A DNA stretch of 64,000 nucleotides from Chytridium lagenaria (Eukaryota > Chytridiomycota > Chytridiomycetes > Chytridiales > Chytridiaceae). Under the pieces are notes generated by a model. The model made no database searches and was not told the origin of the DNA. It saw nothing but the letters and a program-made list of their open reading frames with translations. How positions within the stretch are numbered: the stretch's first letter is position 1; every line of letters begins with the position of its first letter. Location: the NCBI GenBank assembly GCA_025449115.1, contig JAHLKC010000105.1, forward strand, positions 1 through 64,000, read 5' to 3'. The translations under genes and the position numbers were made by a program. Of this stretch, positions 2,567 to 61,580 are shown in pieces.

Positions 2567-3507
2567 TGTGATCTTCTCTTGACCCATCCCTCCCTACCTA
2601 GCTTCGACTAGGGGGTAGGGGAGAAGAGTAAAGGAGTTGCTCCAGCAGAGCAAGTCCACAGAGCACCTAGGGACAGGATGTACTCCTGAATCTAAGTGAT
2701 GTTGTTGTTGTTTGGCGATGGTGTGGATGAGTGATCGCGAGGTTCTGCTTAATTAAAGGGAGAAGGGAACGTGTTTAGTATCTTCTATGTCGACTTACCT
2801 TGCTAATAAACCAATATGAGCACCAGATCGTCTCCTGGCGATCGGGGATGGCTGAAAGCCTCCTTGCCTTCCTGCTATGGCACCTTTTGGAACGTGATGA
2901 TCTCGTTGCCTCACGAGCTGGCACAGGGTAACCTCACTCATCACCTGCCTGCAGCGTCGATCACCGGCTCGGGGATCATCAGAGGTGGAATGTAGCCGAC
3001 CAAGCCTAAGCTAAAGGACACTGACAATGAGGAGGACCCTTGGGCTCCCATCGCAGCCTTCTGCTTCAGACAGCTGGATTGCGGCTTCACCAGGTGGCAG
3101 GGGGTAGAGGGGTGGGCTGCCATCCAAGAAGGAGTGAAGGGAGATCACGGCGAGGCCACGCGCGTGAGATAGAGGATGGGGGATCAACTCAATATCAACT
3201 ACTTAATTCAACAGGTACAAATTAAATCAAGAAATCTCTCATATTAAAGTAATACACAAAATACAAATAAATAATAGACACAACATATGCACAGACACAT
3301 AAACGGCACATATGCGCGCCACCTCCTTCAATAAAAACCCTATAAACGTGGGGAAAAACTATATATAAAAAACCCAAAGGGAAAAGAAGGGAGGATTCAA
3401 TATGACGCGTAAATATACGCGTCGACGCGGGATATAACGGAACTCAACAGACTTAGACGGAATGTCCTTATGAGCCATAGGCCATGTGAATAATGTAATT
3501 CTTCACA
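2567..3507 (-). repeat. 3' LTR of the retrotransposon
   Basis: A 941-bp repeat with TG...CA ends: on the plus strand it starts TGTGATCTTCTC and ends AATTCTTCACA. It matches 17793-18733 over its full length without indels. The last 23 bp (3485-3507) form an imperfect palindrome from TGTGAA to TTCACA. A TATA-like stretch lies at 3359-3372 on the element's sense strand. Confidence 0.95.
3359..3372 (-). promoter_or_regulatory. TATA-like element in the LTR
   Basis: On the element's coding strand this reads TTTTTTATATATAG, about 140 bp inside the LTR start, as expected for a U3 promoter. The equivalent in the other LTR is 18585-18598. The assignment rests on composition and position only. Confidence 0.4.
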
Positions 3508-3522
3508 TTCTCCCGTTTTTAA
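3508..3522 (-). other. Polypurine tract (plus-strand primer)
   Basis: On the element strand the 15 bases before the 3' LTR read TTAAAAACGGGAGAA, purine-rich and abutting the LTR start TGTGAAG, as expected for the RNase H-resistant primer of plus-strand synthesis. The second copy has a near-identical tract before its LTR at 19251. Confidence 0.8.
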
Positions 3523-3550
3523 GAAAAGGCTTACGTAAGAAAAGTCTAAC

Positions 3551-4140
3551 TTAGCTGTCAGAAGTATAAGAACGTTCTGTGATTATATCAGAGCTTGCGT
3601 TATGGGCAAGTCTATAAGGCCAAGTATTGGCAAAAGTTATATAATTGTTACCATCTAGCATCTCTATAGCTAAAGGTAGTTCAAAGTTATCATCAGGATA
3701 ATCATTATCCTGATTATTATCAATATCAGGTTCCAACTGAGGAACTTCATTGTCAATAACATTCTGGTCATCAGAATCTATGGGTACAGCTTGCCGTAAA
3801 GTACGTTTAGCCTTGCGCTTACGTTTCTTTATGGGGCTAGGAGGGGTATCATTAGGATACCTTCATCTTCATCCTCACTACGATAACCATCATTATCTTC
3901 AGGCATCGTGTAGGATATGGGCTTAGGCGCAAGTCTCTTGCGGCCAGCATTCTTTTCATATACTACTCGTAGAGCATATGCTGTGGGCTGTGTTTAGCAA
4001 CCGGTCCCAGTAATCTTTAACTATGGATGAGGGTAAGGCCTCTTCATCCATTAGAAGGTTATGCGCGGTTCCATGACCGAGCCATTTAACATAATACTTA
4101 TACTTTTGTTATGAGAATCATAAGTATGATAATCCAGTTT
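3551..4140 (-). CDS. Pol C-terminus: chromodomain and acidic/basic tail
   Basis: Downstream of integrase the minus strand encodes a chromodomain. The signature YKYYVKWLG lies at about 4077-4102, preceded by FYVEKLxDYHTYDSHNK and followed by a GHGTAHNLLMDEEAL segment, with one base shift inside. Chromodomains at the end of gypsy integrases are thought to direct integration to marked chromatin. The tail then has a lysine/arginine cluster near 3800-3830 and ends with a 61-residue acidic segment (3551-3736). The second copy at 18734-19251 preserves the tail after the chromodomain, so it is a real part of the family. Confidence 0.75.
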
Positions 4141-5198
4141 CTCAACATAGAACTCAGGATCATTATAGTCGCATCAGCGACTTCTTCATCAAATCGTCGA
4201 AACAATTCGCGATTAACTCCAACTGCTACCTTATTCTTAGGCATGCGTCTAATAACTTGGAGTTCTTTCCATGCTGCGATCTCAGCAGCAAAGTCATCTG
4301 AAGCTACTTCTGCAGATGCAGCATTAGCAGTTTCGTAGGCGGCAAAGACTCAAATGGTCGGAGTCTAGCAGCATTAGCAAGTCGTGATAAGAGCTGGCCT
4401 CCAGGGAGGAGCTCTACAACTGTGTATCTATTGCTGTCCATAGATTTACTAAGGACACGCATAGGGCCAGCCCATCTAAATTGGAACTTCTTAGTGGGGG
4501 CATTCTTGTTCTCTTTCCCCGACGTTCAGTCTTCAAGGGAACAGAGAGCCATACCAGGTCGCCAACATCAAACGATGTTTGTTGCGACTGGGTTTATTTT
4601 GTTGTGCTCGTCTCTTGCGTTTGAGTTCTGCACGCAAGAGTACGGCCTTTGAGTAGGCTAGTCTAGCAGCTAGCTGAGTAACATAATCTTAGCCTCTAAA
4701 CGATCATCTTCATCGTTGAGGGATTCTTTGACAAAGTCCTGAAGGGCTTGTCGAGTATTCATGAGCACACTCACATGTGTGTCAGTGTCTATATCATCTT
4801 CAGGAGAAACATAGGTCATCCTGATCGTCATTGACTTCAAGTTCAATGATTCTACATGCCGTGCAGGTCCTCGTCAACAAGGGGATGCCAGCATTGAGGT
4901 GTATAATATCTGGGGAAAGTACCAGAGTGTCGTGACATATAAGTTCATGGCGTTGTCAACAAATATGGGGTAACTGTCACGCAAATGTGGGCGTTCGTCA
5001 TACAGCCATTATGAATAATAGATACATAGCATCTTTTTCTTTCCCATGCAAGTCGTTTTCGCTTTACGAGTTAACGAATGCATCTGGGAGGATTCATTCC
5101 TTCCAAAGGATCTCCATTGGAAGGTATGTCCAAGTCCTTCATCGCGTGGATGTGGACAAGGTAAAATAGATCATAACCATATTTCTTAAGGACGTCAG

Positions 5199-6252
5199 CT
5201 ATGAGCAAGTAAGGCTCTCGACCATCAGTCGAGCAAGTCCATGAGCAGCTCGCGCTAAGCGGCCGTCAAAGAAGTGTAGCTGTTCAGAGAACATAGCAAG
5301 TATTTTAGGAAGAGCCTCTGCAGTATCTCTAGTAGTGGAAACAGCTATCAGAGGTTCTTCTCCTGTCTGAGCCCACAGTCGTGGGTCAGGATATTCTTCC
5401 GCAAACACATCGTCTGTGGGATAACCAAACTTGAGGTCAGCCGGCGTAAACGCTTCACGGCCAAACATCATCATGAATGGGGTTTCATTTGTGGTCTGGT
5501 GGACCGTTGTTCTGTATGCAAACAACACATAGGGGAGTATTTCATCCCAATCGTCATGTGTTCTTTGGTTTATATACGCACGTATCATCTGGCATAGAGT
5601 TTTGTTTGTTCGTTCAACTAAACCGTTGGCCTGAGGCCAATACGGCATAGAGAAGGATTGTTTCATTCCTAGTACAGTAGAAACTCTCTTAAAGAGGTCA
5701 CTAGGAAATGGTTGTCCTTGATCCGAGTGTAAGGTCAAGGGAATGCCGAAGCGGCAAAAGCATTGCTCAACAACTATTCTAGCAATGGTGTTTGCTTCTA
5801 AGTCGGGGACGGCAAACGCATCAGCCCAACGGGTAAAGTAGTCTGTGAGGACAACAATGTACTTGTTGCCACGTTGGCTAGTGTTCATAGGACCAACAAT
5901 ATCAATGGCAACACGATCCCAAGGTCTATGACCAAAGGGTATGGGCCTCACGGCACCTTTTCTAGTCAAGTTATCTTTAGATTGTTGACATGTGGGCATC
6001 GTCGTATTATGCCTCTAAGTCTTTTTGGATGGTAGGCCACCAAAACCTATCTAGGGTAGTGGCGATAAGTCTGCGAACACCGAGGTGTCCTCCAGCCATC
6101 ATATCATCATGGACGGCATCAAAAGCAACGTCCTGAAGTCTTTTGGGGACACATAAAGCGACTCGCACTGGCGATCGTCGCATAAGGTAGTCCTTCACAT
6201 AGAGTACGCGGTAGAGGACTCTACCACGCATCACCATATTCTGGGCATTCAT
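5199..6252 (-). CDS. Retrotransposon integrase
   Basis: Two abutting frames form integrase. The first (6007-6252) carries the zinc-binding N-terminus, HDDMMAGGHLGVRRL, and FWWPTIQKDLEA. The second (5199-5999) starts with CPTCQQSK-like residues completing the HHCC finger and holds the rve catalytic core: D33 in AIDIVG, D93 in LHSDQG and E129 in NGLVERTN, with the canonical 35-residue D-to-E spacing. Integrase joins the cDNA ends to target DNA. The usual YHPQ motif before the glutamate reads YWPQ here. A frame break lies between the HH and CC parts near 6000. It follows the EEP domain rather than RNase H directly. Confidence 0.92.
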
Positions 6253-6540
6253 TAAAACACCCTTTCTTAGATCAGGATCCTCAGGAAGGATTCCTTTCTC
6301 AGAAACTTGATGACGTCGGCAAATCTCAAGTCATTTCTTTGGGCTTTAATAAAGTCACCAGATATCTGTCCATTGGCCATGAAGGCATTGGGACAGTATT
6401 TGCATTCCTATCATTGACAGAAGGCCCGGGTTGTTTGGGGCTTCATGCGGTGGCTCTTGATCAGGTAAGTCAAGTGCCGGCAATGAGATCATGTTATCAT
6501 AATCATTGTGGTGAGCATCGCTGTGCTCTAAGACCAATTC

Positions 6541-7438
6541 AACCATTTCATGGTCAGTCAGTGACGCCACAAAATGGTGGTTGACATTCCATTTGCAAGG
6601 AATTCGTTTATCTACAAAGACGTAGTCTATTCTCCAACAGCTTTATAGAACTCTGTTGGATCATGCCAAGTATATCCTGGCGTATGCGGATGGCTATGAC
6701 GAAATCCATCCTTAAAACCTAAGTTAATGAATGAGCTAAGCCAGTAGCGTTCATCATTGCGGAATCCAGAGTATCCATAAAATCTGGATGGTTCTCGAAC
6801 ATCATTGCTTTGTGAGCAATGTTGAAGTCTCCTACAACAATTGTATTTGACTGAGCTTTGAGACTCTTTACAAAAGTATGTAGTCGTTCCAGGAACTTCA
6901 TCTTGTATTCCTGTCTGTGATCATGCCTCGTGCCATTTGGCGCATAGACATTCACTATATTCATACCTAAAAGGCAGAGAGTAAGGCACCGTCCCTCTTC
7001 AACAAAGTCGTCGAAGTCAGTGCGCATCATATGAGTCCCACATATTACTGAAAGTACGGGGATATCTTCGCGGACCATGGTCATAACACCATTGTGTCCA
7101 TTTCTTTTGTCGTCAGCATACATCTTCCATCCGCGGACGGACTTCAGTTGTTGCCAAAACTTTTCATGACCATCGCCGACCATAGTCTCTTGGAAGCAGG
7201 CGATGTCACATTCCATTTCATCCAAATATTTAGCAAAGAACTCTGCTCTATTGGATTCATCACCTTCAATTCTCTTTGCAAAGTGTTTCTTAACAAGAGC
7301 TTGAAGGCTGTTCACATTCCAACTTATAATCTTCAACTTGGAAGAGCGGAATGGTGTTTGTATATCATCAATGGGATATAACTTTTTCATTGACTCTGGT
7401 GGGAAGTCATGGATCATACGAGAAGGAACATCAGGCAA
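6541..7438 (-). CDS. ExoIII/AP-endonuclease-like EEP domain within pol
   Basis: A 239-residue frame (6719-7438) continues through two single-base shifts to about 6541, giving roughly 265 codons, the size of an ExoIII-family enzyme. Motifs in order: IISWNVNSL with N41, CFQET with E84, NVYAPNG with Y165, VVGDFNIAH with D204 and N206, then in shifted frames GYTWHDP, RIDYVFVD and LTDHEMV (6541-6561). These correspond to ExoIII N7, E34, Y109, D151, N153, D229 and H259, so the whole active-site set is represented. The family cleaves DNA at abasic sites; related domains nick target DNA for LINE retrotransposons. It lies between the RNase H end (7789) and integrase (6252). I know of no typical Ty3/gypsy element with this insert. 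Its role here is inferred only. Confidence 0.88.
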
Positions 7439-7788
7439 GCCGTCGTTCTCTCAACGCCATATATCTCGCGTAGAGATGGGGGTGAGTCTGAGGTTTCTCT
7501 TTTCATTGAGGGTGAGAAAGCTCACGTATCTCAAGTATTTCTAGCGTAAAAACCACTTAGAGATTTTGGACCAGTGTCAGGCACTGGGTAGTTTACAGCA
7601 TCTGGTGGTATACCAGCATAACTGTTATGACGTGGGTGATCTGTCCAGGTATGTGCCTAGGTGCGCGAGAGGAGTTACCTCAGGATCAGGCACCTGGCAA
7701 ATCCAGAATCGGGTAGTTCCTGTGAACTCCCGTTTTTGATATTCAAATAGTCTGCGTCTCTCGAGAATGTCCTTCAATCGAGATGACT

Positions 7789-8737
7789 TTATCCTGACAA
7801 AACATTGTCAATGAGCTGTTCAGGGAAGATAACTTCACTGGAAAGCAATGGTCGATCAGATCCAAACTCCCGTTTTTGAGAAGGAGAGAAGACATGGGCG
7901 GGCGGGTGGGTATAATTAATGCTAATCGCAGAAGTTATAGTTTGCAAAAGTTCTTTGTTCTTAACTTTAGCATCTTTTCCGATAAAGACTCGAGGGGCGG
8001 TCTCAGGGAAGTCACCAACCTCTGAGTCATCATCAGGTATAGGCTTTGGGGGTTTGAAGCTGCGTGAGAGAGCGTCGGCAACGGCCTGGCTCTTGCCGGG
8101 AACATGAACCAACTCAATCTCATGATCCTGTAGAGAGTATGACCATCGGGCAAAGCGGCCTTCAGTCACCTCTAGCAAACAGGGGAATTAAGGCTGAGTG
8201 ATCAGTCTCAATGCGGTATGGTTTGCGCCATGTGTAAGTCTCAAAGAGGTTTGAAGACCACACAACAGCGAGACCCTCGCGGTCAGTGTTAGAGTAGTTT
8301 TGCTCAGCATCGTTCAACGTGCGTGAAGCAAAAGCTACAGGATGGTATATGCCGTCGCGATTCACAAAAAGCGCAGCACCAATTGCGTACTTAGAAGCAT
8401 CGCAAGATATAACGAACTTATCGTCTGGTAATGGAGTTACTAATAGTACCTCAGATTTGAGTATATCTATCAAGCGTCGAAAGGCTGCTTCACAGGAGGC
8501 AGTCCAGTCAAATGAGATCTCTTTGCGAGTGAGATCATATAATGGTTTTGCGACGTCAGTAAAGTTGGGTACAAATCGTCGAAAATAATTAGTGAAACCA
8601 AGGAATCGTTGAATATCCTTGACTGTTTTTGGTACAGGCCAATCTTCAAGCTTCACAAGCTTATCAGGATCTGCTTTTATCCCATCTTCAGAGACGATAT
8701 GACCCAGGAAGGGTAAGACCTTGAAAGGAACTGACAC
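7789..8737 (-). CDS. Retrotransposon RT connection and RNase H
   Basis: The frame 8162-8737 starts with the RT thumb/connection (LPFLGHIVSEDGI, IQRFLGFTNYFRRFVPNF) and passes into RNase H: ISCDASKYAIGAALF (first catalytic Asp), TDREGLAVVW (Glu) and TDHSALIPL (Asp). The next frame, 7789-8178, completes it with the gypsy-type ending HVPGKSQAVADALSRSF. RNase H removes the RNA template and shapes the primers. The two frames overlap by 17 bases in different phases, so one base shift separates them. About 90 residues of non-conserved linker follow before the EEP domain. Confidence 0.93.
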
Positions 8738-9292
8738 TTCTTAGGTTTAAGCTTCAGGTTGTACTCATATAGTCTATCAAATACAAGCTGAAGATTTTCG
8801 AAGTGGGAATCCACATCCGTTGAGAATATGATAATATCGTCAATGTACACCATACATTTGATCCACTTTATTCCAGCGAGGACTAAGTCCATGCATCTCT
8901 GGAAAGTTGGTGGACTATTTGTGAGGCCAAAGGGCATCACGTTGTACTCATAGAGTCCATCTGGGGTAACAAGGCAGTTTTGTGACGATCCTCTGGGGCT
9001 ACAGGTATCTGCCAAAAGCCTGAGAGGAGATCAAGGGATGAGAAGAGACACATCCCGGCTAACCGATCAAAGGTCTCATCAATGCGGGTAAAGGATACTT
9101 ATCCTTTATTGTGATCTCATTGAGACGACGGAAGTCAGTGCAGAATCTGTCAGCACCGTCCTTCTTTTTCGCGAGACACACGGGAGATGCGTGAGGAGAG
9201 CGTGACTTCCTAATGACGCCAGTCTTCAGCATTTCCTCGACATGGTCGCGGATGATCTTAGCGCGCTCTAAACCAACGGGGTAAGGAGCCAT
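8677..9292 (-). CDS. Retrotransposon reverse transcriptase core
   Basis: The frame 9059-9292 holds RT block 1-2 (MLKTGVIRKSRSPHASPVCL, KKKDG, FCTDFRRLNEITIKDKYPLP). The frame 8677-9015 holds LVTPDGLYEYNVMPFGLTNSPPTFQR and the catalytic YIDDIIIFS near 8830-8848. These are standard Ty3/gypsy RT blocks. The stretch between them, with the first catalytic Asp region, is broken by a base shift near 9020-9060, and another shift leads into the thumb at about 8735. The enzyme copies element RNA into cDNA, primed by a tRNA. Confidence 0.93.
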
Positions 9293-9469
9293 GTTGGGAG
9301 GGCGAGAATATGGTTTTGTTTCAATGGTATGGTAACCAGGTCCTTTGTGCCTGTTCTAACGTATTCACGAAAGACATCAGCGTTCTTAGGAATTGACAAG
9401 AACTGGATGAGTCGCTCACGCAGTTGCATATCAGTAATGTGCTGAAGATCAAACTTCTTCAGAAGATCC

Positions 9470-10156
9470 TCAGTGGTATAGGATCCATATTCTTAAGGTA
9501 ATCCATGCGATCCTCATTTGTGGTGTCATGAGGTCTATGACGGGAGGGCTCTTCCAAATCAGGGCCATCGTCAGCTGGAGTTTCCAGCAGAGCTTTTGTG
9601 ACAAAGTCAGGAAGGGGGGAATATCAGGCATTGAGCCGTATCCTTCATCAACGGGATCTAACTCCTTTTGTGAAGTCAGGATATCCGTGTCGGGCACATC
9701 CAAGAGGGGGTCTCGAGACTCCTCTGGTGGCAGTTTCGCTTTTTCAAGCTTTTGTAAGGTGAGAAGTACGTTACTCTGTGGGTACTTCCCTTTATCGCTG
9801 CTCTTCCTAAGAAGGCGGCGGGTGTCAGCACGGCTGACCTTTCTTTTACCATCGTCATCAACAGCACCAATGCCATTAATGAGAAGGTTGAGATGGTTTC
9901 CAAAATCTTGGAGTGTTTTAATCCGTCTATTTGCGGTGACCTCTGTTTTGATATAGAGGCACGCAGCAGGGTCATCCTGATCATCCTCATGGATGGGGAT
10001 GAAGTCAGTGAACTGTTGTTTAGGGTCGTCATGAATATACCCAAAACACGTTCCTGGTGGTAAAGAGGTTTGGAAAGGTCCTCGATGACCAACCTGTAGG
10101 GGGAATGGTTCCATGTCTGGTACAAGGCGACCATCGTCGCAACGTACAGCCTGCAT
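9470..10156 (-). CDS. Pol linker between protease and RT
   Basis: A 228-residue open frame between the protease and RT. No catalytic motif is visible. It is acidic, with IPIHEDDQDD and repeated short D/E runs, and has a basic segment (DDDGKRKVSRADTRRLLRKSS). An overlapping alternative frame (9676-10284) reads into its upstream part, so the join to the protease frame is shifted. Such linkers are usual in gypsy pol but normally shorter. Confidence 0.5.
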   Translation of the reverse strand: MQAVRCDDGRLVPDMEPFPLQVGHRGPFQTSLPPGTCFGYIHDDPKQQFTDFIPIHEDDQDDPAACLYIKTEVTANRRIKTLQDFGNHLNLLINGIGAVDDDGKRKVSRADTRRLLRKSSDKGKYPQSNVLLTLQKLEKAKLPPEESRDPLLDVPDTDILTSQKELDPVDEGYGSMPDIPPFLTLSQKLCWKLQLTMALIWKSPPVIDLMTPQMRIAWITLRIWILYH

Positions 10157-10461
10157 TCCGTTGGGAAACAGGTCTGCGTGTGAGTATACGTCCGTTCCGC
10201 GTCAAAGTCAGTAAAATCCTGACGAGGAAGAACGGTGTAGTTTGCGGAAGGAACGTCTGGCAGCCTATCAAAGACACACCACACGGTTGTTCCGTAGTCA
10301 GGGTCGAACTGAGCCTCCTTAGCGAGGACAATTCGTATGTAGGGTGACTTACTCTTGTAAGTGAACCCTGTGCTATTACTTTAAAGGTGTCTCGTAAGCT
10401 TTTACTTTTCTGCCCTTCAGAGTAGGTGCATAGTAGAAGTAGCGTAGTTTGTGGGAACTAG

Positions 10462-11292
10462 CTAGGATATCCATATGGAAGGCAGGATAGTAGGCATGCC
10501 AAGAATGACTGGCCGCGGACAGTGTTCCACTATATAGAAGGGAAGTTTCTTCTTAACTCCAGGAGTACTTCCGGGAGATACGTTGAGTCTGCATATTCCA
10601 AGAATACGCTCTCGTCCACCAATTCCATTTGAGAACTTTGGGTAATGGAAAGGTGTAATGTCAAACTCCACTCCTCGTGAGTAAAGATCACGTAAGAGGG
10701 ACTTAGTTACAAGGTTGCCATCAGAACCTGTATCGATGAGTGCATCACCAATGTGGACGCCACCAAGGTTGCAACAAATCTGAGTGATACAAGGAGCATC
10801 ATTTTCAATAAGATCAGATGGGACATCATCAACAATGACGTCATCAGTTTGGCACTCCATTTCTCGAGTCTCCTTAAGAGGTGCGGGATGATTACTAGAT
10901 GTCTTTTCAACACATACATCGTAGAGTTTGGATACTGCGTGAAGAACAACAGGACCTGTATCAGACTGAGTCTGGTTGGAGCTGTCGCTGGTGCTAACAT
11001 GTGTATTAACACCTGCTGAAATCATTACTGGAGTTTTACTCGCAGAGTCAGAACCAACGGCTTGATGCAAAGCAAGCACAGGGGCCGGGTCTTTAAGGAA
11101 TGTCTGCACCTGAGCAGAGAACGCATCAGGGAGGGAGGGCAGGGATAAACTCTTCGAAGTCAAAGTCATAGCAGACTGACGGAGAGCACCTGTTATGGGT
11201 ATAGGTTGCGAATTACGATGTCGCCGTAAATACGGGATGTTGCAAGAAGTGCTCGGATGAAAGGAGCAACTGTTTAGGGTCTTCTCGTGCAC
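10462..11292 (-). CDS. Retropepsin-like aspartic protease region
   Basis: In this 276-residue frame the second half is a retroviral-type protease: ALIDTGSDGNLVTKSLL has the DTGS active-site triad and a conserved hydrophobic flank, and PVILGMPTIL near the end matches the usual ILG motif. The protease cuts Gag-Pol into working proteins. The first half is Ser/Thr-rich with no fold signature. The frame overlaps the end of the gag frame (11213) by about 80 bases in a different phase, consistent with a frameshift or an indel between gag and pol. Confidence 0.85.
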   Translation of the reverse strand: MHEKTLNSCSFHPSTSCNIPYLRRHRNSQPIPITGALRQSAMTLTSKSLSLPSLPDAFSAQVQTFLKDPAPVLALHQAVGSDSASKTPVMISAGVNTHVSTSDSSNQTQSDTGPVVLHAVSKLYDVCVEKTSSNHPAPLKETREMECQTDDVIVDDVPSDLIENDAPCITQICCNLGGVHIGDALIDTGSDGNLVTKSLLRDLYSRGVEFDITPFHYPKFSNGIGGRERILGICRLNVSPGSTPGVKKKLPFYIVEHCPRPVILGMPTILPSIWIS

Positions 11293-12982
11293 AGACCTTG
11301 TACAGCGTCAAGTGTATTGGGACAGGAAGTGCCGACGTGACCGTAACAAGGTCGTGGGTATAGAGAAGTGTGTCCAAATACACGGAGTCAGGTTTGGACG
11401 AGACAAACCAAGCAGTAGAGTAGACGTTTGGTTCGTGGGATAACACGTGTAAATGAGGTAGCATACACCGTATAGAAAGAGGGTGTTTGATACTCAAATT
11501 GGTTAAGTGTGGTAAGGCGGAAGCTCTTACATTAGGTTGCGTTATAATAATAACGTCGAGAGGATATGCTAGTAAAGCAATAAGGAAACGATCTAGCTCA
11601 TCATCATCCGTAGGCATATAAATATACGGATGTGAGAGTTCTGGAGATGTATTCTGGACAACAGATTCAACATCAATTAATGGGACAGAAGTAGGAAAAC
11701 AAAAATGTTTATTGTTATGATTCCAAACTACTGATGGTACTGATGTAAGACTTTCAAGAAAAAAGGAGCTCACGGCGTAAATGAAGTGAAACGGAACTTC
11801 ATAAGTTGCCATAGCCATGGGCGGAGGTACAGATTCCGGCATCAAGGCTTGAGTTGAGCTATCAAAAGCATCAGTATGTGAAGAAGTATGCGGGATCTTA
11901 CCAGAAGAAATCAAACGAGACAAAACTTCATCAGGGTCTTCAAGATCGGCAAAGGGTCGTCCACTAAAGGGGTCAAAAGAGAACATTTGATAGTAATGGG
12001 CGGGGTAACGACGCGCAGCTGGAGGGGCTGCGGTGGTCCCGGTTGAAGTGGTGCCAGTACTGAGTCGGGTAGACTGAGTACCAGCAGTATTCATAATAGA
12101 CGCATTAGAAGCGTCAGAAGTAAAAGGACCATTACGATGGTCATTCTGAGCAGAGCTCTGACGACTACGAGTATAGTCAGAGTTGTTGTAACTGCCCTGA
12201 CGAGAGCGGTTGTTAAAGTCATTATTGCGAGGAGGATATCCTTGGCGATAGGGTTGGCGCTGATAAGGCTCACGAGCACCATTGCGTATCATTTCGATAT
12301 CCGCACGAAGACTGATGATGTCAACGTCGGATAATTCAGAATCTCCGTCAGAAGTAAGGACAGAGTTCAACGTGTGAATGTACGTGTTGAGCGTACGATT
12401 CACAAGTTCATCACTCATGTTGACAAAAGGCAACGGGAGCTCAGTGTTCTCAGCGATATGAACTAAGAGGTTATCGCGAGTGTTGGGAGCTTTCTTAAGC
12501 TCACGACGGAGGCGAACAACTTCGCGTTGGCTATCAGCAACAACCTGCGTCAAGTTTTCGAATTTCTCATTGAAAGCGTGCATAATAGCAGCAGTCTCAG
12601 AGGAGTCAGACTTAGCAATCACCCGAGGGTGATGAAGCTGCATGTGGTCAACGATATCGTCGACAGTTATAGTGAGATCATCCCACTTCTTTCCAGAGTA
12701 AGACTCCTTCTTGACGAGCGACTTCCATCGGTCGTCTTGACATCCTGAAATAAGGATGGTTTTAAGCCTGTCGTCGCTGAGACGATTAGCAAAAGGCAAA
12801 GACGTGTTAAGATACGTCAGTTTATTGAGAGCTTCAAGAGGACCCATGCGGGAGGTGTCCCATTGAAACTGCTCAACTTTTGTAACAAGATCCGACTCGT
12901 CCGTATTAGGAGCAAAGTTACGGCGAAGGACCTTCTGAAGTTGACTCAACGTCGTTGAGGCTCTAGGAACCAGATGAGCCAC
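11213..12982 (-). CDS. Gag (capsid-like) with extra C-terminal region
   Basis: A 589-residue frame. Residues 1-130 look like a Ty3-type retrotransposon gag/capsid domain: LSQLQKVLRRNFAPNTDE, LVTKVEQFQWDTSRMGPLEAL and ILISGCQDDRWKSLVKKE are typical helices. A coiled-coil stretch (FENLTQVVADSQREVVRLRREL) follows, then an Arg/Asn/Tyr-rich nucleic-acid-binding-like region (YQRQPYRQGYPPRNND...) with no CCHC knuckle. The last roughly 190 residues form a separate hydrophobic region (YIYMPTDDDELDRFLIALL, LDVIIITQPNVRASALPHL) that I cannot assign. Gag packages the RNA in the virus-like particle. Its upstream part is probably in the 13119-14300 frame. Confidence 0.75.
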   Translation of the reverse strand: MAHLVPRASTTLSQLQKVLRRNFAPNTDESDLVTKVEQFQWDTSRMGPLEALNKLTYLNTSLPFANRLSDDRLKTILISGCQDDRWKSLVKKESYSGKKWDDLTITVDDIVDHMQLHHPRVIAKSDSSETAAIMHAFNEKFENLTQVVADSQREVVRLRRELKKAPNTRDNLLVHIAENTELPLPFVNMSDELVNRTLNTYIHTLNSVLTSDGDSELSDVDIISLRADIEMIRNGAREPYQRQPYRQGYPPRNNDFNNRSRQGSYNNSDYTRSRQSSAQNDHRNGPFTSDASNASIMNTAGTQSTRLSTGTTSTGTTAAPPAARRYPAHYYQMFSFDPFSGRPFADLEDPDEVLSRLISSGKIPHTSSHTDAFDSSTQALMPESVPPPMAMATYEVPFHFIYAVSSFFLESLTSVPSVVWNHNNKHFCFPTSVPLIDVESVVQNTSPELSHPYIYMPTDDDELDRFLIALLAYPLDVIIITQPNVRASALPHLTNLSIKHPLSIRCMLPHLHVLSHEPNVYSTAWFVSSKPDSVYLDTLLYTHDLVTVTSALPVPIHLTLYKVCAREDPKQLLLSSEHFLQHPVFTATS

Positions 12983-13118
12983 AGTATCAACTGGGGGTCG
13001 TAAGTTTATGACGGGTTCCAGGTCACGCGGAAAGCGTGCTCCAGATCGTCAAAGGGACGAGCTAGATCCGGCTTAGTCGGATCAGTAACGTACTGTGAGA
13101 GAATACTCTCAATCTTCG

Positions 13119-14300
13119 CTATAAGCGATAGATGGACGCAGGCTGCGGTGAGTCAAGAACCACCGTAGCCATATCATCCTTTGCACTCTTGGCATTCATG
13201 CCATCTTTGATTTTACCAGATCCAGCCAAAGAGGCAGCGGATGAGGACCTGGAAAAAGAAGTGGAACCACCGGCACCAGACATAGTGGGAACGGGAGGTA
13301 TAGGTGAGGGTGGGCTAATAAAAGACCGACCGTCGTTATCTGTATGTGAGAAACGAACTGCACGAGATGAAGTCTCAGCAGTTGTAACTGGAATAACGCG
13401 TGAAGCGTCAATTAATTCGCGTGAAGCGTCGACTAACTCACTGGAAGCAGCAGGGGTTGGACCTGGCTGGATCCAAGAAAGGTTTGAAGGAGCAGAGCGG
13501 GAAGGGAAGCTCTGGTCCAAGAAAGATGATCGACGGCGACGGGTGAGGGAAACCTCGGACTCGATGTCGTCAAAGGCGTCGTCGGCGGTGTCAGGATAGT
13601 GTTCTTCGTCGTCAGAGGTCTCAACAGGGCGAGAGAGACCGGAACGAGGTATAACCGGGCGAGACGGTTGAGATAGACTTACACCAACGACTGGAGAGAA
13701 GTCAGGTAAAGACGGAGAAAATAACCTTTGCCGCGAGTCAATGATCGCGACAGAAGGCGTTGGAACGGATAAATCCGTTAAAGTACCAGGCGTAGAAACG
13801 CGTGGAGGTTGTGCGGGAGCAGAGAGAGCTCGAGCAGCACCTGGAGCTGGGATAGTCGTAAAACGAGAATCCAAAGTAAGCTCGAGGTGAAATGGAGGTT
13901 CCAAGTGACGAGGAGCTGTGGAAACAGGTCCAGGTCCAAGGAATCGAAAGAGATCTGCCCGTGTGAACAGGCTATCGCGGTGAGAGGCGAGGTAGTCGAG
14001 GGAAGCTCTCTCACGGCGAGATCTCGAGTAGGTGACGGCGTCGAAGGTAAGGTCCGTAAGGTGAAAGAGGCGAGGATGGAAGAGAACGCTCCCGTTGACC
14101 GTGATCTCGTCCACAAGTTGCAGCGTAGTAACAAAAGACGAAGAAGACAAAGGCGTACTTACAAAGTTCGTAGTGACGAAGAGGAACCACCAGGTGTCGT
14201 GAACGGAAGGTCGTCCTCGATGGATGTTCGTCGTAAGTGATGCCTTGAAAAAGAAGGCGTCGGATGGGTTTTCAGGTGTAAAAAGAGGATAGTTCTGCAT
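13119..14300 (-). CDS. Gag-region N-terminal ORF (ORF2)
   Basis: A 393-residue frame immediately upstream of gag. The N-terminal 130 residues are ordered-looking (DTWWFLFVTTNFVST..., LVDEITVNGSVLFHPRLFHLTDLTFDAV, RADLFRFLGPGP). The rest is Ser/Pro/Arg-rich with acidic DDEE and DDAFDD stretches. It ends at 13119, but another phase continues with IAKIESILSQYVTDPTKPDLARPFDD towards the gag frame, suggesting that ORF2 and gag are one protein split by indels. I recognise no domain outside the retroelement context. Confidence 0.55.
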   Translation of the reverse strand: MQNYPLFTPENPSDAFFFKASLTTNIHRGRPSVHDTWWFLFVTTNFVSTPLSSSSFVTTLQLVDEITVNGSVLFHPRLFHLTDLTFDAVTYSRSRRERASLDYLASHRDSLFTRADLFRFLGPGPVSTAPRHLEPPFHLELTLDSRFTTIPAPGAARALSAPAQPPRVSTPGTLTDLSVPTPSVAIIDSRQRLFSPSLPDFSPVVGVSLSQPSRPVIPRSGLSRPVETSDDEEHYPDTADDAFDDIESEVSLTRRRRSSFLDQSFPSRSAPSNLSWIQPGPTPAASSELVDASRELIDASRVIPVTTAETSSRAVRFSHTDNDGRSFISPPSPIPPVPTMSGAGGSTSFSRSSSAASLAGSGKIKDGMNAKSAKDDMATVVLDSPQPASIYRL

Positions 14301-14834
14301 CGTTTTTGGATAAGATGGTAAAAGCTTGAAGATTAGCGAAGGAAATCAACAAGGGATCACCAAATATTATAATATGTATTGCATCGCATGGGCAGATCGA
14401 AGCCCATGAGTGCATGTATGAAGAGGCGAGGGAAATCTCCTAATGTGGAGATGAGCCTCGTCGGCATCCTCATTTTCATAATAATAAAAAATAATATTTA
14501 ATTATTACTTTGTGTCACGGTATGTGCAGTACGGGTATCGTCCTAAACGAATTCGGATTAATCCGTTCGAAAATCCGAGAGAGTCAGGAATCGAACTGAC
14601 AACCAAGCGTATCCCCAAGAGTTTAACTTAGGAAATTTGTATGACGTCGTGTCTTATATATTTTCTTTCGAAAAGATAGAGACTGATCCCCGGTGAGTGG
14701 AGGATGAAGAAGAAAATCTATTATTCTAATTATTCCCAAAGAGATTCATTATAAATCTGCGAGGGGATATCTATATCACTACGAGAGGAATAGGAAAGAG
14801 AAGGTAAGGAGAGCCCTTTTTTTGGACTTCATCA
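14301..14834 (-). other. Non-coding spacer inside the retrotransposon
   Basis: Between ORF1 and the gag-region ORF, with no coding frame supported. It contains a 7-bp perfect stem (CATGGGC...GCCCATG, 14387-14408) and a 12-bp perfect palindrome CGGATTAATCCG (14554-14565). Such structure could affect internal translation or RNA packaging, but nothing proves it. Confidence 0.4.
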
Positions 14835-17060
14835 TTAAGAGGATGAATCCAGGACCAAGTCTCGAAGGGTGGGATAAGGTGAGCAGGGTGGAGTTGATGA
14901 AGGACTATCATCATCATCAACTTCAATCGGTTCACCATTATTAACAGGGTTCTCCTCATCAACACGAGCTGCGGGGTCTTCTCGAACGATCAGAGCGGCA
15001 TCAGGAGCAGTGGAAGGTACGAGAAGAGGGGTGGTCTGCTCAGTGAGGGTATGTTTAACTAACACCGATGTTTCAAGCTTAGAACTACTAGTATCCGTTG
15101 GTGGGATAACGGCAAGTGATGAAGTTTGGCCGACTCGAGCTGACGTCTTTGCTAGAAGAGCGAGGGCATCATCCTTCTTGGAGACTGCGAGGGATGGACG
15201 AGCAGGAGAAGAAGGTCCAGACCGACGATGTCGGTACTGGAGGAGGGTAAGTCTCTTAGTAATGCCCTCAACATCAAAGCGTCGAGACTTAGATTCATCT
15301 ACTCCAGGGGCTCTAGGGCGGGACACCGAATGGCGTGGAGCCTTGCGGCGAGAAGAGGAGGCAGAAGGAATGACCTGACGGGGGTCGGGGGGATTGTCAT
15401 CATCACTAACGGAACCAACGGAGGCGGTGGTAGTGTCTGTGAGGGACTCTCCATCCAAATCGATGGCGAGTGCTTCCTTCTTTGGGGTGAGAGGATGGTT
15501 GGGAGGAAGGCGTACATTAGCACTTAAACGCCGAGGGGTGGCCAAAACCAACGCTGGAGGCGGTGGAGGAGGTGGTGGAGGGGACTGGAGCAAAGTAAGT
15601 TGCTTAGCACGAGCCTCTTTCACTTTTAACTGACTTTCAACAAGGACACTGGTCCAGTCGCGACGAATAGAGACGAGAGAGGCGTCGGAGTACGCATGCT
15701 CGTTGTCTAAGTGACGGATGGTGGGCTGGCGGATCCGAAGGAGCGTTTGGAGCTCAGAGGTAGCATCCACAAGCATCTCTCTCACTCCACTAATCGTTTT
15801 GTAGAGGAAAGCACGACGATCATCGACGAGAGCGGTGAAGGATGCAAGTTTCTCGTTGCGGTAAGTCGGGTTGCTTTTGAGCTTGCTCTCGTTGATGACG
15901 ACGTCGACATCTAGGTTCTTCAGGCGTTCCACGAGGGAGAGGACAGCATCGATATTGTATCGATTACTGCCGGGCTCCTTTTCGCGAAGATTGGTGTTGG
16001 AGGAACAAGGGTCGGACGTTCCATCCAAGCAGGGAGATGGCGGAACGTCCCGAGAGGAAGAAGGTGAGGGTGCCTTTGGGCGTACTGTCACCAGGGTGCG
16101 GGGACTAAGGCATCCCTGTTGGCGTTGGATGATGGCACGGTTGCGAGCGGGACCTACTAACTCTTCGTAGGAACAAGGATCATCCACCCTGGGGCGGAGA
16201 AACACCTCCTCGTATTCAGGTAAGGGTTCCTTTCCTTTGACTTTTGAATGCTCAGTGGCAGGTTCGAGGCCTGCCTTGAGCCTGTTAAGTTCGCTGTCCA
16301 ATGGAGCATGGAAAACCTCATCCTCGTCCATTGGGGAAGGATCTCGAGTGGAGTGAAGACCACTAGGGAGGGGATTCTGAGACGACGAGGCGAGATGAGG
16401 GGAGCCCTTGTATTTACCGACGCCACCAGGGTGATGGGATTTAGGCAAAGAGGGGGCAGAAGCCCTATTGGAAGCAGGAGACTCCCTGGATGGTGGGGGT
16501 CGAGAACTCGAAGTTATAGAACCGGAAAGGAGCTTTTGATGCTGGCCAACGGTAGCTCGTGGGTCGAGGATGGTGAGGTTGTGCTTGCGGCACTCCTCAT
16601 CATTAAGGTAGGGTTCAGAGAGTTGTCCCTTCCCTTTTGGCCTTTGGTTTCTGATGAATCTGCTAAGGTTTTCTTGACAGAGCGGCACTCCAAAGATGGC
16701 GCATGTGGCGCGAAATTCGGAAATGATTCCATTGGATCGCTCAGTGATGGAGGGGAGGTCTCTTCCAGCCTTGATCTGGAAGAGGCGGGCATTTTCTGGG
16801 ATGCCAGACCCGGTGAGTTTGGGTCTTTTCTTTTCCACTTTGCCCCCATCTTTGCGAGGGTAATCGTCACTAGCCCTCTTTTTATCGTCACCTCGCTCTC
16901 GCCAGTTGTTGTTGCTGCGGGATGAAGACATGGTGTAGGTAGCGATACTATTAATAAAGTGATTGTCAAACTTATTTTGTATGTTTTCATTTGACAAGTT
17001 TTTCGAAAATATTTTCGAAGTCCCTCGTTCAAGAAGGGGAAACAAGAGTTTCATCGTCAA
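14835..17060 (-). CDS. Retrotransposon ORF1, extra protein upstream of gag
   Basis: A 741-residue uninterrupted frame and the first ORF after the 5' LTR. A later in-frame ATG gives MSSSRSNNNWRERGDD, a plausible alternative start about 43 codons in. After a basic N-terminus there is an ordered segment (ENARLFQIKAGRDLPSITER, CAIFGVPLCQENLSRFIRNQ). A long Ser/Pro-rich region follows, with a possible helical stretch in the middle (LVERLKNLDVDVVINESKL...), a run of nine prolines and an acidic tail. I recognise no family. Extra ORFs before gag are known from giant plant Ogre-type gypsy elements; whether this is comparable is inference. Unlike gag-pol it is free of frame breaks. Confidence 0.65.
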   Translation of the reverse strand: MTMKLLFPLLERGTSKIFSKNLSNENIQNKFDNHFINSIATYTMSSSRSNNNWRERGDDKKRASDDYPRKDGGKVEKKRPKLTGSGIPENARLFQIKAGRDLPSITERSNGIISEFRATCAIFGVPLCQENLSRFIRNQRPKGKGQLSEPYLNDEECRKHNLTILDPRATVGQHQKLLSGSITSSSRPPPSRESPASNRASAPSLPKSHHPGGVGKYKGSPHLASSSQNPLPSGLHSTRDPSPMDEDEVFHAPLDSELNRLKAGLEPATEHSKVKGKEPLPEYEEVFLRPRVDDPCSYEELVGPARNRAIIQRQQGCLSPRTLVTVRPKAPSPSSSRDVPPSPCLDGTSDPCSSNTNLREKEPGSNRYNIDAVLSLVERLKNLDVDVVINESKLKSNPTYRNEKLASFTALVDDRRAFLYKTISGVREMLVDATSELQTLLRIRQPTIRHLDNEHAYSDASLVSIRRDWTSVLVESQLKVKEARAKQLTLLQSPPPPPPPPPALVLATPRRLSANVRLPPNHPLTPKKEALAIDLDGESLTDTTTASVGSVSDDDNPPDPRQVIPSASSSRRKAPRHSVSRPRAPGVDESKSRRFDVEGITKRLTLLQYRHRRSGPSSPARPSLAVSKKDDALALLAKTSARVGQTSSLAVIPPTDTSSSKLETSVLVKHTLTEQTTPLLVPSTAPDAALIVREDPAARVDEENPVNNGEPIEVDDDDSPSSTPPCSPYPTLRDLVLDSSS

Positions 17061-17778
17061 AACAAAAGGTAGACGCGAAAACCCTTTTGAATTTTAGAAA
17101 GGTCGAGCGGACCTATCTAACACGTTTTTGAGCACCGCAATAGGGTGCGTTTCCATAGACATCCTGCTCGACCATCCACTGGCTTCAGGTTTTTGGCCTA
17201 GCCAGGTGGTGTGACAAGCATTTTTGTGAGAAATGTAGTGCGCCGCAAAGGTACGCTACATAGTATCATTGACTTTAATAAGTCAAATATGAAAAATACG
17301 AGCTAAGAGCTCGAAATTTTACGAGGATGTGTAAAACATGCTCGGATTTAGCTTTAAAAGCAAGGTAAGGCCTAGAAGTCGAAAATCGAGTTCTAATAGC
17401 CAAAGTTTCTCAGTAGATAAGGTAAGAGTCCAGGGACTCAATCTAGAGAGGTAGGTATCACTTTAAGCATGACCCACGCGGCGTGAAACGCGGCATAGAG
17501 GTGATGCAGTGATGGTGTGGTCTCTGGTGCCCTTCCATCATCCCAGACTGCCCCAAAATTGGAACAATGGCCAGGACAATGGTAGGTAACACGAGATGAT
17601 TCCAGGCATGCATGGAGAGAGGTAGGAGATCCAGGCACATCCAGAACACATCCAGAGGTCCAGTTTCGGCGGGGGAACGCGTCCAGGTTGGTCCAGAGCG
17701 CAGGTGATGTCGGGTTTGCAAAAGAAACAACGAAAAACAAGCAAAAACCGACGAGAACTCACCAAAACACCCATTTTA
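17061..17778 (-). other. Retrotransposon 5' untranslated leader
   Basis: About 720 bases between ORF1 and the primer-binding site. The short open frames here overlap one another and carry no motif. It is probably the leader with packaging and dimerisation signals, by analogy with other LTR elements. Confidence 0.5.
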
Positions 17779-17791
17779 GGTTGGGCCCCCA
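17779..17791 (-). other. Primer-binding site, complementary to tRNA-Pro(AGG)
   Basis: On the element strand, one base after the 5' LTR, the sequence reads TGGGGGCCCAACC. It pairs perfectly over 13 nt with the 3' end of the mature tRNA-Pro encoded at 61509-61580, once CCA is added (GGUUGGGCCCCCA). The match stops at the next base. This tRNA is therefore the likely primer of minus-strand cDNA synthesis. Confidence 0.92.
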
Positions 17792-17792
17792 C

Positions 17793-18733
17793 TGTGATCT
17801 TCTCTTGACCCATCCCTCCCTACCTAGCTTCGACTAGGGGGTAGGGGAGAAGAGTAAAGGAGTTGCTCCAGCAGAGCAAGTCCACAGAGCACCTAGGGAC
17901 AGGATGTACTCCTGAATCTAAGTGATGTTGTTGTTGTTTGGCGATGGTGTGGGTGAGTGATCGCGAGATTCTGCTTATTTAAAGGGAGAAGGGAACGTGT
18001 TTAGTATCTTCTATGTCGACTTACCTTGCTAATAAACCAATATGAGCACCAGATCGTCTCCTGGCGATCGGGGAGGGCTGAAAGCCTCCTTGCCTTCCTG
18101 CTATGGCACCTTTTGGAACGTGATGATCTCGTTGCCTCACGAGCTGGCACAGGGTAACCTCACTCATCACCTGCCTGCAGCGTCGATCACCGGCTCGGGG
18201 ATCATCAGAGGTGGAATGTAGCCGACCAAGCCTAAGCTAAAGGACACTGACAATGAGGAGGACCCTTGGGCTCCCATCGCAGCCTTCTGCTTCAAACAGC
18301 TGGATTGCGGCTTCACCAGGTGGCAGGGGGTAGAGGGGTGGGCTGCCATCCAAGAAGGAGTGAAGGGAGATCACGGCGAGGCCACGCGCGTGAGATAGAG
18401 GATGGGGGATCAACTCAATATCAATTACTTAATTCAACATGTACAAATTAAATCAAGAAATCTCTCATATTAAAGTAATACACAAAATACAAATAAATAA
18501 TAGACACAACATATGCACACATATATAAACGGCACATATGCGCGCCACCTCCTTCAATAAAAACCCTATAAACATGGGGAAAAAGTATATATAAAAAACC
18601 CAAAGGGAAAAGAAGGGAGGATTCAATATGACGCGTAAATATACGCGTCGACGCGGGATATAACGGAACTCAACGGACTTAGCCAAAATGTCCTTATGAG
18701 CCATAGGCCATGTGAATAATGTAATTCTTCACA
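17793..18733 (-). repeat. 5' LTR of the retrotransposon
   Basis: A 941-bp LTR with TG...CA ends, equal in length to 2567-3507. Differences by eye are about 16 substitutions, five of them within 60 bp of the element's outer end and three in one short A/C/T tract. It should carry the promoter for the genomic RNA; the TATA-like stretch is at 18585-18598. Confidence 0.95.
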
Positions 18734-20185
18734 AGAGGCCTTACCCCCATCCAAAGTTAAACAAAACTGGGACCGTGTTGCTAAAACACAGCCCACAGCA
18801 TATGCTCTATGAGTAGTGTATGAAAAGAATGCTGGCCGCAAGAGACTTGCGCCTAAGCCCATATCCTACACAATGCCTGAAGATAATGATAGTTATCGTA
18901 GTGAGGATGAAGGTGAAGGTATCCCTGATGATACCCCTCCTAGGCCCATAAAGAAACATAAGGGCAAGGCAAAACGTACTTTACGGCAGACTGTACTTAT
19001 AGATTCTGGTGACTAGAATGCTATTGAAAAGAAAGTTCCTCAGTTGGAACCAGATATAGACAATCCTCTGAATGATGATTATCCTGACAATAACTTTGAA
19101 GTACCTTTAGCTATAGAAATGCTAGATGGTAACAATTATATAACCCTTGCCAATACTTGGCCTTATTGACCTCACATATTTACAGATAGTTTCTTATACT
19201 TCTGACAACTAGGTTAGACTATACGTAAGTCTTTTCTTAAAAACGGGAGACTGTGAAGAATTGCATTATTCACATGGCCTATGGCTCAAAAGGACATTTT
19301 GTGTAAGTTGGTTGAGTTCTATTATATCCCGCATCGAAGCGTATATTTACGCGTCCTATTGAATCCTCCCTTCTTTTCCCCTTGGGTTTTTTATACATAC
19401 TTTTTCCCATCTTTATAGGGTTTTTATTGAAGGAGGTGGCGAGCATATGTGCCGTTTATGTGTGTGTGCATATGTTGTGTCTATTATTTATTTGTATTTT
19501 GTGTATTACTTTAATATGAGAGATTTCTTGATTTAATTTGTACCTGTTATTAAGTAGTTGATATTGAGTTGATCCCCCATCCTCTATCTCACACGCGTAG
19601 CCTGGCTGTGATCTCCCTTCACTTGTTCTTGGATGGGAGCCCACCCTCTACCCCCTGCCACCTGTGAAGCTAAAATCCAGCTGTATGAAGCAGAAGTCTG
19701 CGATGGGAGCTGAAGGGTCCTCCTCATTGTCAGTGTCCTTTGGCTTAGGCTTGGTCGGCTACATTCCACCTCTGATGATCCCTAAGCTGGTGATCAACGC
19801 TGCAGGCAGGTGATGAGTGAGGTTACCCTGTGCCAGCCCGTGAGGCAACGAGATCATCACGTTCCAAAAGGTGCCATAGCAGGAAGGCAAGGAGGCTTTC
19901 AGCCCTCCCCGATCGCCAGGAGACAATCTGGTGCTCATATTGGTTTATTAGCAAGGTAAATTGACATAGAAGATACTAAACACGTTCCCTTCTCCCGTTA
20001 TTAAGCAGAATCTCGCGATCACTCACCCACACCATCGCCAAACAACATTAACATCACTTAGATTCAGGAGTACATCCTGTCCCTAGGTGCTCTGTGGACT
20101 TGGTCTGCTGGATCAACTCCTTTACTCTTCTCCCCTACCTCTAGTTGAAGCTAGGTGGGGAGGGATGGGTCAAGAGAAGATCACA
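18734..20185 (+). mobile_element. Truncated second copy of the same retrotransposon, opposite orientation
   Basis: 518 bp of internal sequence (18734-19251) match the reverse complement of 4043-3508, meaning the Pol tail after the chromodomain plus the polypurine tract, and then a third LTR follows. The copy begins exactly at the outer edge of the full-length element's LTR, so the full element probably landed in it, with the other half later lost. The coding remnant has in-frame stops and is clearly older than the full copy. Confidence 0.9.
19252..20185 (+). repeat. 3' LTR of the truncated copy
   Basis: 934 bp starting TGTGAAGAATTGC and ending AGAAGATCACA, homologous to the other two LTRs in inverted orientation, with many more substitutions and small indels. 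Together with 17793-18733 it forms a large inverted repeat with a 518-bp spacer. Confidence 0.92.
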
Positions 20186-61508: not shown

Positions 61509-61580
61509 GGGCCCAACCGGGAATTGAACCCGGGACCTCACCCACCCTAAGGGTGAATCATACTACTAGACCATTGGGCC
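61509..61580 (-). tRNA. tRNA-Pro (anticodon AGG)
   Basis: 72 nt, no intron. The acceptor stem GGCCCAA pairs perfectly with TTGGGCC, with discriminator C. A-box-like TGGTCTAGTAGTATG and B-box GGTTCAATTCC are present. The anticodon stem is CACCC/GGGTG and the loop TTAGGGT gives anticodon AGG (read as IGG). The T arm is CCGGG-TTCAATT-CCCGG. CCA is not encoded, as expected in a nuclear gene. The mature 3' end is exactly complementary to the primer-binding site of the retrotransposon at 17779-17791. Confidence 0.97.

Follow-up and report, generated by a model that had tools for sequence, protein, structure and literature searches.

A predicted ExoIII-type endonuclease domain between RNase H and integrase in Ty3/gypsy-like retrotransposons of Chytridium lagenaria

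In typical Ty3/gypsy elements (Metaviridae), to our knowledge, RNase H is followed by integrase with no nuclease in between. The first 64,000 nucleotides of contig JAHLKC010000105.1 of Chytridium lagenaria (assembly GCA_025449115.1; this whole stretch is called the window) contain an element with long terminal repeats (LTRs), in which an exonuclease/endonuclease/phosphatase (EEP) domain is located exactly there. In detail, the order on the minus strand (5′ to 3′) is LTR, primer binding site (PBS)-like stretch, gag region, protease region (PR), reverse transcriptase (RT), RNase H, EEP, integrase zinc-binding domain (H2C2), integrase core (rve), polypurine tract (PPT)-like stretch and LTR. The element resembles Ty3/gypsy in its paired TG...CA LTRs, its PBS-like and PPT-like stretches (both read by eye) and the order PR-RT-RNase H-integrase on one strand. 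An initial annotation of this DNA had already placed the EEP between RNase H and integrase and inside matching LTRs, without naming a strand; Pfam matches on the same (minus) strand and an LTR identity of 98.3% (942 aligned bases, gap-free) bear this out.

Additional enzymes have been described in gypsy elements, namely a captured DNMT3, with a Ka/Ks < 0.2 reported for the DNMTs (PMC5890265), an AlkB demethylase (PMC9289625) and an extra RNase H (PMC5348765). These elements are similar to those of C. lagenaria in carrying an extra enzymatic domain and differ in the kind of enzyme; the accessible portions of the three papers report no apurinic/apyrimidinic (AP) endonuclease in an LTR element. 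In the Kuafuorterviruses, which are LTR elements of animals, the accessible text describes Exo_endo_phos as "only present sporadically" and the RT as having IADD, VADD or LADD instead of YXDD (PMC11673190). On the contrary, the elements studied here show YIDD or YLDD, none of those three motifs, and an EEP recurring across whole families. A survey of fungal LTR elements mentions, in its available part, chromodomains among the additional domains, as well as "complex transposons" whose numerous additional domains stem from multiple insertions (PMC3248453), and in the excerpt available of another study Exo_endo_phos of fungi is assigned to long interspersed nuclear elements (LINEs; PMC10799480). 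No description of an RNase H-EEP-integrase architecture in an LTR element was found in the accessible texts of the open-access literature, subscription papers and Repbase being outside this scope. Among LINEs, Dualen, which Kojima and Fujiwara are said to have described in 2005, reportedly has two different DNA-cutting domains. The APE-type endonucleases of LINEs share the EEP superfamily with the domain reported here; unlike them, it resides in an LTR element with a DDE integrase and is not LINE-like.

Recurrence of the domain in the genome and elsewhere

The EEP segment recurs far above chance. When its 898 bases were searched against the 41.9 Mb of the own genome, 55 candidates were obtained and 40 were scored; of the 42 listed matches, 27 (with the window among them) span 880 or more of these bases at identities of 90-100%. 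The respective protein search listed 136 matches, including further families which are about 25-53% identical in protein. Many of the same genomic places are also matched by the RT and the integrase of the window element. A one-off insertion was therefore rejected, since the EEP recurs across many copies and families.

In several copies the EEP lies within a long open frame (contigs C198, 2573 aa; C95, 1604 aa; C324, 1308 aa; C76, 1145 aa; C50, 1001 aa). RT, RNase H, EEP, H2C2 and rve are found in a single uninterrupted frame in C198 (protein P0001) and C95 (protein P0002), and the best match of P0001 among solved structures (PDB) is Ty3 (7q5b, 6.1e-111). In C76, from the window's own family, one frame of 1039 aa extends from the end of RNase H via the EEP to the integrase, and in C324 RT through EEP share one frame, with the integrase broken. 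As for the window, its EEP matches in three frames, and the location of RID and TDHE in frames different from that of the earlier motifs indicates that this copy is interrupted. The "complete" EEP of the initial annotation is thus correct in that all six motifs are present, but in the window copy it is complete only as pieces; the single open frame is found in other copies of the genome.

The 85 RNase H rows were merged into 79 places; in 35 of them an EEP follows on the same strand at a distance of no more than 3 kb, and in 44 it does not, some of the latter being clipped by contig ends or decayed and so not all truly EEP-less. The distance from RNase H to rve is 1796-2831 bp in elements with an EEP (at least 17 of the 35 places) and 656-664 bp in those without (at least 9 of the 44), these counts being lower bounds because only 44 of 150 rve rows entered the comparison. 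At least 32 of 75 EEP places are followed by one of these rve rows at no more than 2.6 kb. These 75 places were obtained by merging most rows of one listing with a few from two others; the host genes on C71 and C26, the row of C118 and some second fragments belonging to one copy were left out. Translations from C23 and C312, read by eye, confirm an EEP-less gypsy group in this genome. The RNase H-EEP-integrase order recurs in several families.

In a separate observation, the broken EEP fragments on contigs C80, C114, C291 and C319 are the same and score identically, which suggests a shared duplicated segment.

Beyond this genome, the protein searches gave one further Pol of this order, the metagenome protein P0003 (1710 aa, from an ENA contig). 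It shares 33% identity across 99% of the query region and has, in this sequence, RNase H, an EEP whose motifs are complete, H2C2 and rve. A weak aspartyl-protease-like match is located downstream of its integrase (residues 1009-1086), and a Chromo match (residues 1578-1625) reaches 23.8 bits for a cut-off of 25.1; no Chromo is listed for P0001 and P0002, whose ends are cut. Such a domain at the C-terminal end of integrase would be the mark of a chromovirus. Among the 21 proteins of one search, PF03372 is listed in P0003 and P0023 only, and a search with the EEP and H2C2 of P0003 found only P0003 itself. A profile search, in which the 7999 candidates sharing most words were scored, gave 54 proteins at 1e-20. 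Besides P0003, it returned gypsy-type Pol/integrase proteins without an EEP, APEX1 and the metagenome protein P0074 (1101 aa), which has an EEP in a different arrangement, with no RT or integrase recognised. The scan of IMG/VR viral contigs and the first GTDB scan provided no relative; the second GTDB scan provided 80 ExoIII-type loci of bacteria or archaea, and 22 of these were included in the tree.

Enzyme type, selection and ancestry

The EEP of these elements is predicted to be of the ExoIII/AP-endonuclease type and not of the LINE type. Against the NCBIfam xth profile TIGR00633 (curated cut-off 99.05 bits), seven of the eight element EEPs tested score above the cut-off (C198 128.4, C95 148.5, P0003 134.6, C76 155.7, C11 128.0, C324 130.9 and C3 159.3 bits, with C3 and C76 being one family); the eighth, C41, is clipped by a frame break and reaches 95.7 bits. 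Three LINE-like controls of the same genome (L029, L033 and L035), named so because of a non-LTR-type RT sequence read by eye downstream, gave no match, no match and 20.1 bits, i.e. none above the cut-off. For C3, the PDB search yielded ExoIII enzymes from bacteria and archaea, the best at 1.9e-29, as well as APE1 at about 1e-19, whereas L033, the one LINE-like endonuclease tried, had no PDB match.

In the alignment with APEX1 and bacterial ExoIII, the catalytic residues N, E, R, Y, D, N, D, D and H, whose roles we take to be those in APE1 and ExoIII, are kept in the element rows wherever covered; the sole exception is C11, in which A replaces the N that follows YxP. The abasic-site pocket, presumably formed by F266, W280 and L282 in APE1 numbering, has the counterparts W-W-I/V in the window's group (group A, see below), the same as in bacterial ExoA. 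The second W (W280) lacks a counterpart in the three LINE rows. The domain is like the xth family (ExoIII/ExoA/APE1) in catalytic residues, group A pocket and profile score, and unlike it in being a domain of a retroelement Pol with a clade of its own, the xth members being free cellular enzymes. A LINE origin or a nested LINE was rejected on profile scores, PDB matches, pocket and the tree given below. The context of APE-type LINE endonucleases in the initial annotation is corrected in this respect. The catalytic residues of RNase H and integrase are also readable in P0001 and P0002, on motifs which we assume to mark them, and this indicates that the EEP is an addition which replaces neither.

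Among stop-free copies, the EEP is under purifying selection. Codon-model omega is 0.060 (9 rows), 0.063 (4 rows) and 0.037 (6 rows). For instance, C324 and C234 differ by 78.5 synonymous and 20.5 non-synonymous changes (ratio of non-synonymous to synonymous rates, dN/dS, 0.041). Further pairs gave 0.074 (C324-C184), 0.074 (C234-C184), 0.051 (C120-C234), 0.097 (C76-C155), 0.135 (C3-C155) and 0.017 (C3-C76), and four more are saturated at synonymous sites. In a second set, 14 of the 17 EEP pairs listed lie at 0.06-0.17. Clean integrase pairs gave 0.086 (C76-C155) and 0.136 (C234-C120), but several of the integrase and RT comparator rows suffer distortion from frame breaks, with values up to 0.67, and serve as a rough yardstick only. 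EEP pairs with enough changes lie at 0.02-0.17, below the value of 1 which the initial annotation had named for purifying selection. Several families with intact motifs, under purifying selection in their stop-free copies, support the proposed LTR lineage with two DNA-cutting domains; neither an absence of the EEP from other copies nor relaxed catalytic residues (checked in stop-free copies) was found.

The EEP tree comprises 36 rows: seven element-type EEPs, the 22 GTDB loci and P0023 (bacterial/archaeal), APEX1, the two genes of the host and the three LINE-like rows. The seven element-type EEPs, including P0003, C11 and P0074, form one group (96/85); P0074 is counted here by its place in the tree only and clusters with C11 (99/98). 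The LINE-like rows are separated from the 33 others (97/91). As the initial annotation had asked whether the EEP groups with host or LINE enzymes, the answer is a clade of its own, apart from LINEs, which joins the host Apn2 only weakly (89/39). The ExoIII-type genes of the host, APE1-like at C71:40051-40915 and Apn2-like at C26:250572-251006 (labels by eye), are apparently split by introns. A host gene fragment as the source of the EEP was rejected, because these genes sit elsewhere and appear intron-split.

In the RT trees (51 rows, then 40 after 11 long or partial rows were dropped), the EEP-bearing elements occupy two places, each with 100/100 support: group A (C198, C324, C95 and C135; motif YIDD) and group B (C11, C94 and C63; motif YLDD), the latter on a long branch (2.4-2.7). 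A constraint of all EEP-bearing RTs as one clade is not rejected (approximately unbiased test, p 0.126). This result and the single EEP clade favor one ancient capture over two, as the simpler reading of the trees. The EEP may also have been transferred between retroelement lineages.

Layout of the window copy

The coordinates of the element are given in the table. The gag region is named by position only, and two of its open reading frames (ORFs), 13119-14300 and 11213-12982, have no match in Pfam. The spacer between RNase H and EEP is conserved in group A, where L014:2407-2727, L020:997-1329, L040:1984-2271 and L039:2665-2994 align with the window, and could not be made out by eye in C135 or in group B. 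It has no profile match in PDB or Pfam, and an ASCH/PUA-like identity, which was a by-eye impression, received no support from these profiles.

Features of the element in the window
Feature	Position	Strand	Basis
Whole LTR element	2567-18733	minus	paired LTRs and Pfam domains between them
5′ LTR, 941 bp, ends TGTGA...TCACA	17793..18733	minus	pairs with 3′ LTR
PBS-like stretch, starts TGG, directly after 5′ LTR	17779..17791	minus	read by eye
gag region, ORFs 14835-17060, 13119-14300, 11213-12982	11213..17060	minus	position only
Protease region	10462..11292	minus	Pfam Asp_protease_2, 22.0 bits, under 24.3 cut-off
RT, more than one frame, YIDD motif	8677..9292	minus	PF00078 (RVT_1) 1.2e-21 for 8677-9015; 9059-9292 by eye
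RNase H	8162..8737	minus	PF17919 1.9e-27, PF17917 9.7e-25
Spacer domain, about 110 residues, conserved, frame-broken in window	7520..7830 (approximate)	minus	by eye
EEP first part, single frame: SWNVN, CFQET, YAPNG, GDFN	6719..7438	minus	Pfam PF03372 6.1e-12
EEP last part, other frames: RID, TDHE	6541..6718	minus	translations
Integrase zinc-binding domain (H2C2)	6007..6252	minus	PF17921 7.1e-10
Integrase core (rve)	5199..5999	minus	PF00665 1.3e-12
PPT-like purine-rich stretch adjoining 3′ LTR	3508..3520	minus	read by eye
3′ LTR, 941 bp	2567..3507	minus	pairs with 5′ LTR

Directly next to the 5′ LTR lies an inverted fragment of a related copy (18734-20185), made up of an LTR and some 0.5 kb of internal sequence. 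Inspection of the element's direct flanks by eye showed no target-site duplication. A tRNA-Pro (AGG) gene is located at 61509-61580 on the minus strand of the window.

Possible role and its alternatives

The reading which we prefer, by a modest preponderance of the sequence evidence, is that a Ty3/gypsy-like Pol captured an ExoIII/AP endonuclease of the cellular type and has retained it as a functional domain acting on the element's own cDNA. As a part of Pol, the EEP would be packaged together with RT and integrase. There, it would cut the cDNA at abasic sites and clear blocked or damaged 3′ ends, so that the LTR ends would stay usable for the integrase and gaps would be extendable by RT. The position in Pol between two enzymes of the cDNA, the ExoIII active site, the abasic-site pocket and the added status of the domain are the reasons for which cDNA processing is held most likely, followed by end maturation; a LINE-like insertion nick appears much less likely.

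Several observations weigh against cDNA processing by a maintained enzyme. The rows of the codon models were chosen for stop-free reading. Three near-identical pairs show higher dN/dS, each on few changes: C324-C120 0.41 (3 + 5 changes), C95-C50 0.28 (1 + 1) and C234-C37a 0.18 (3 + 2). The pocket is altered in C11 of group B (T-F-F) and in P0074 (T-M-F), where the substrate may thus differ. Finally, the protein identity between the window and C198 is 42% for the EEP, compared with 56% for H2C2, 71% for RNase H, 72% for rve and 73% for RT. The EEP thus evolves faster in protein than RT, RNase H and rve, with its active site kept, and this tempers the claim of conservation.

ExoIII-family enzymes also have 3′ exonuclease and RNase H activity, and with the EEP between RNase H and integrase in a single polyprotein this would fit a role in cDNA maturation, where the EEP would mainly trim extra 3′ nucleotides or remnants of the tRNA and PPT primers, in aid of RNase H and integrase, and abasic repair would be secondary. 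We regard this as a clearly less probable alternative, given that the same Pol retains its RNase H residues, that other gypsy elements of this genome get along with no EEP, and that the window's group has preserved its abasic-site pocket.

In LINEs, target-primed reverse transcription relies on a nuclease with the EEP fold. By analogy, the EEP could nick chromosomal DNA and open a second route of insertion, with the cDNA inserted or RT primed independently of the integrase, and the lack of a visible target-site duplication around the window element would agree with it. This route is improbable: neither the sequence of the EEP nor its place in the tree nor its pocket is LINE-like, the integrase is kept with H2C2 and rve in the same frame, and the TG...CA LTRs are accompanied by PBS-like and PPT-like stretches. 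Moreover, the inverted fragment abutting the 5′ LTR explains the lack of a duplication equally well. Slightly more doubtful still is a role in target-site choice, in which the EEP would direct integration towards chromosomal DNA with damage or nicks; a domain that binds damaged DNA, fused next to the integrase, would suit it, but the catalytic residues are kept and not just a binding surface. That the EEP is a passenger or an artefact (a host gene fragment, a nested LINE or decaying sequence) is hardly credible, even though the window copy is broken and many others are stop-ridden or split between frames, in view of its recurrence in many copies and families in frame with RT and integrase, its low dN/dS, its metagenome relative P0003, the host ExoIII-type genes located elsewhere and the separate LINE-like clade (97/91).

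A lineage which has retained an AP endonuclease of its own over deep divergence would imply that cDNA damage or the quality of cDNA ends limits the replication of retroelements enough to be solved by gene capture. Capture of dUTPase may solve the problem of uracil in a similar way. A repair-type nuclease in the Pol of an LTR element, beside the enzyme of insertion, is unusual, and the presence of gypsy families with and without the EEP in one genome offers a natural contrast. More tentatively, and at rather long odds on sequence data, the elements may represent a long-lived LTR lineage whose Pol has two DNA-cutting enzymes cooperating at insertion, the AP endonuclease opening or repairing cDNA or target DNA in a step for which integrase does not suffice, or one whose EEP serves as a built-in counter-defence, undoing the damage (abasic sites arising through deaminases and glycosylases) which the host inflicts on the cDNA.
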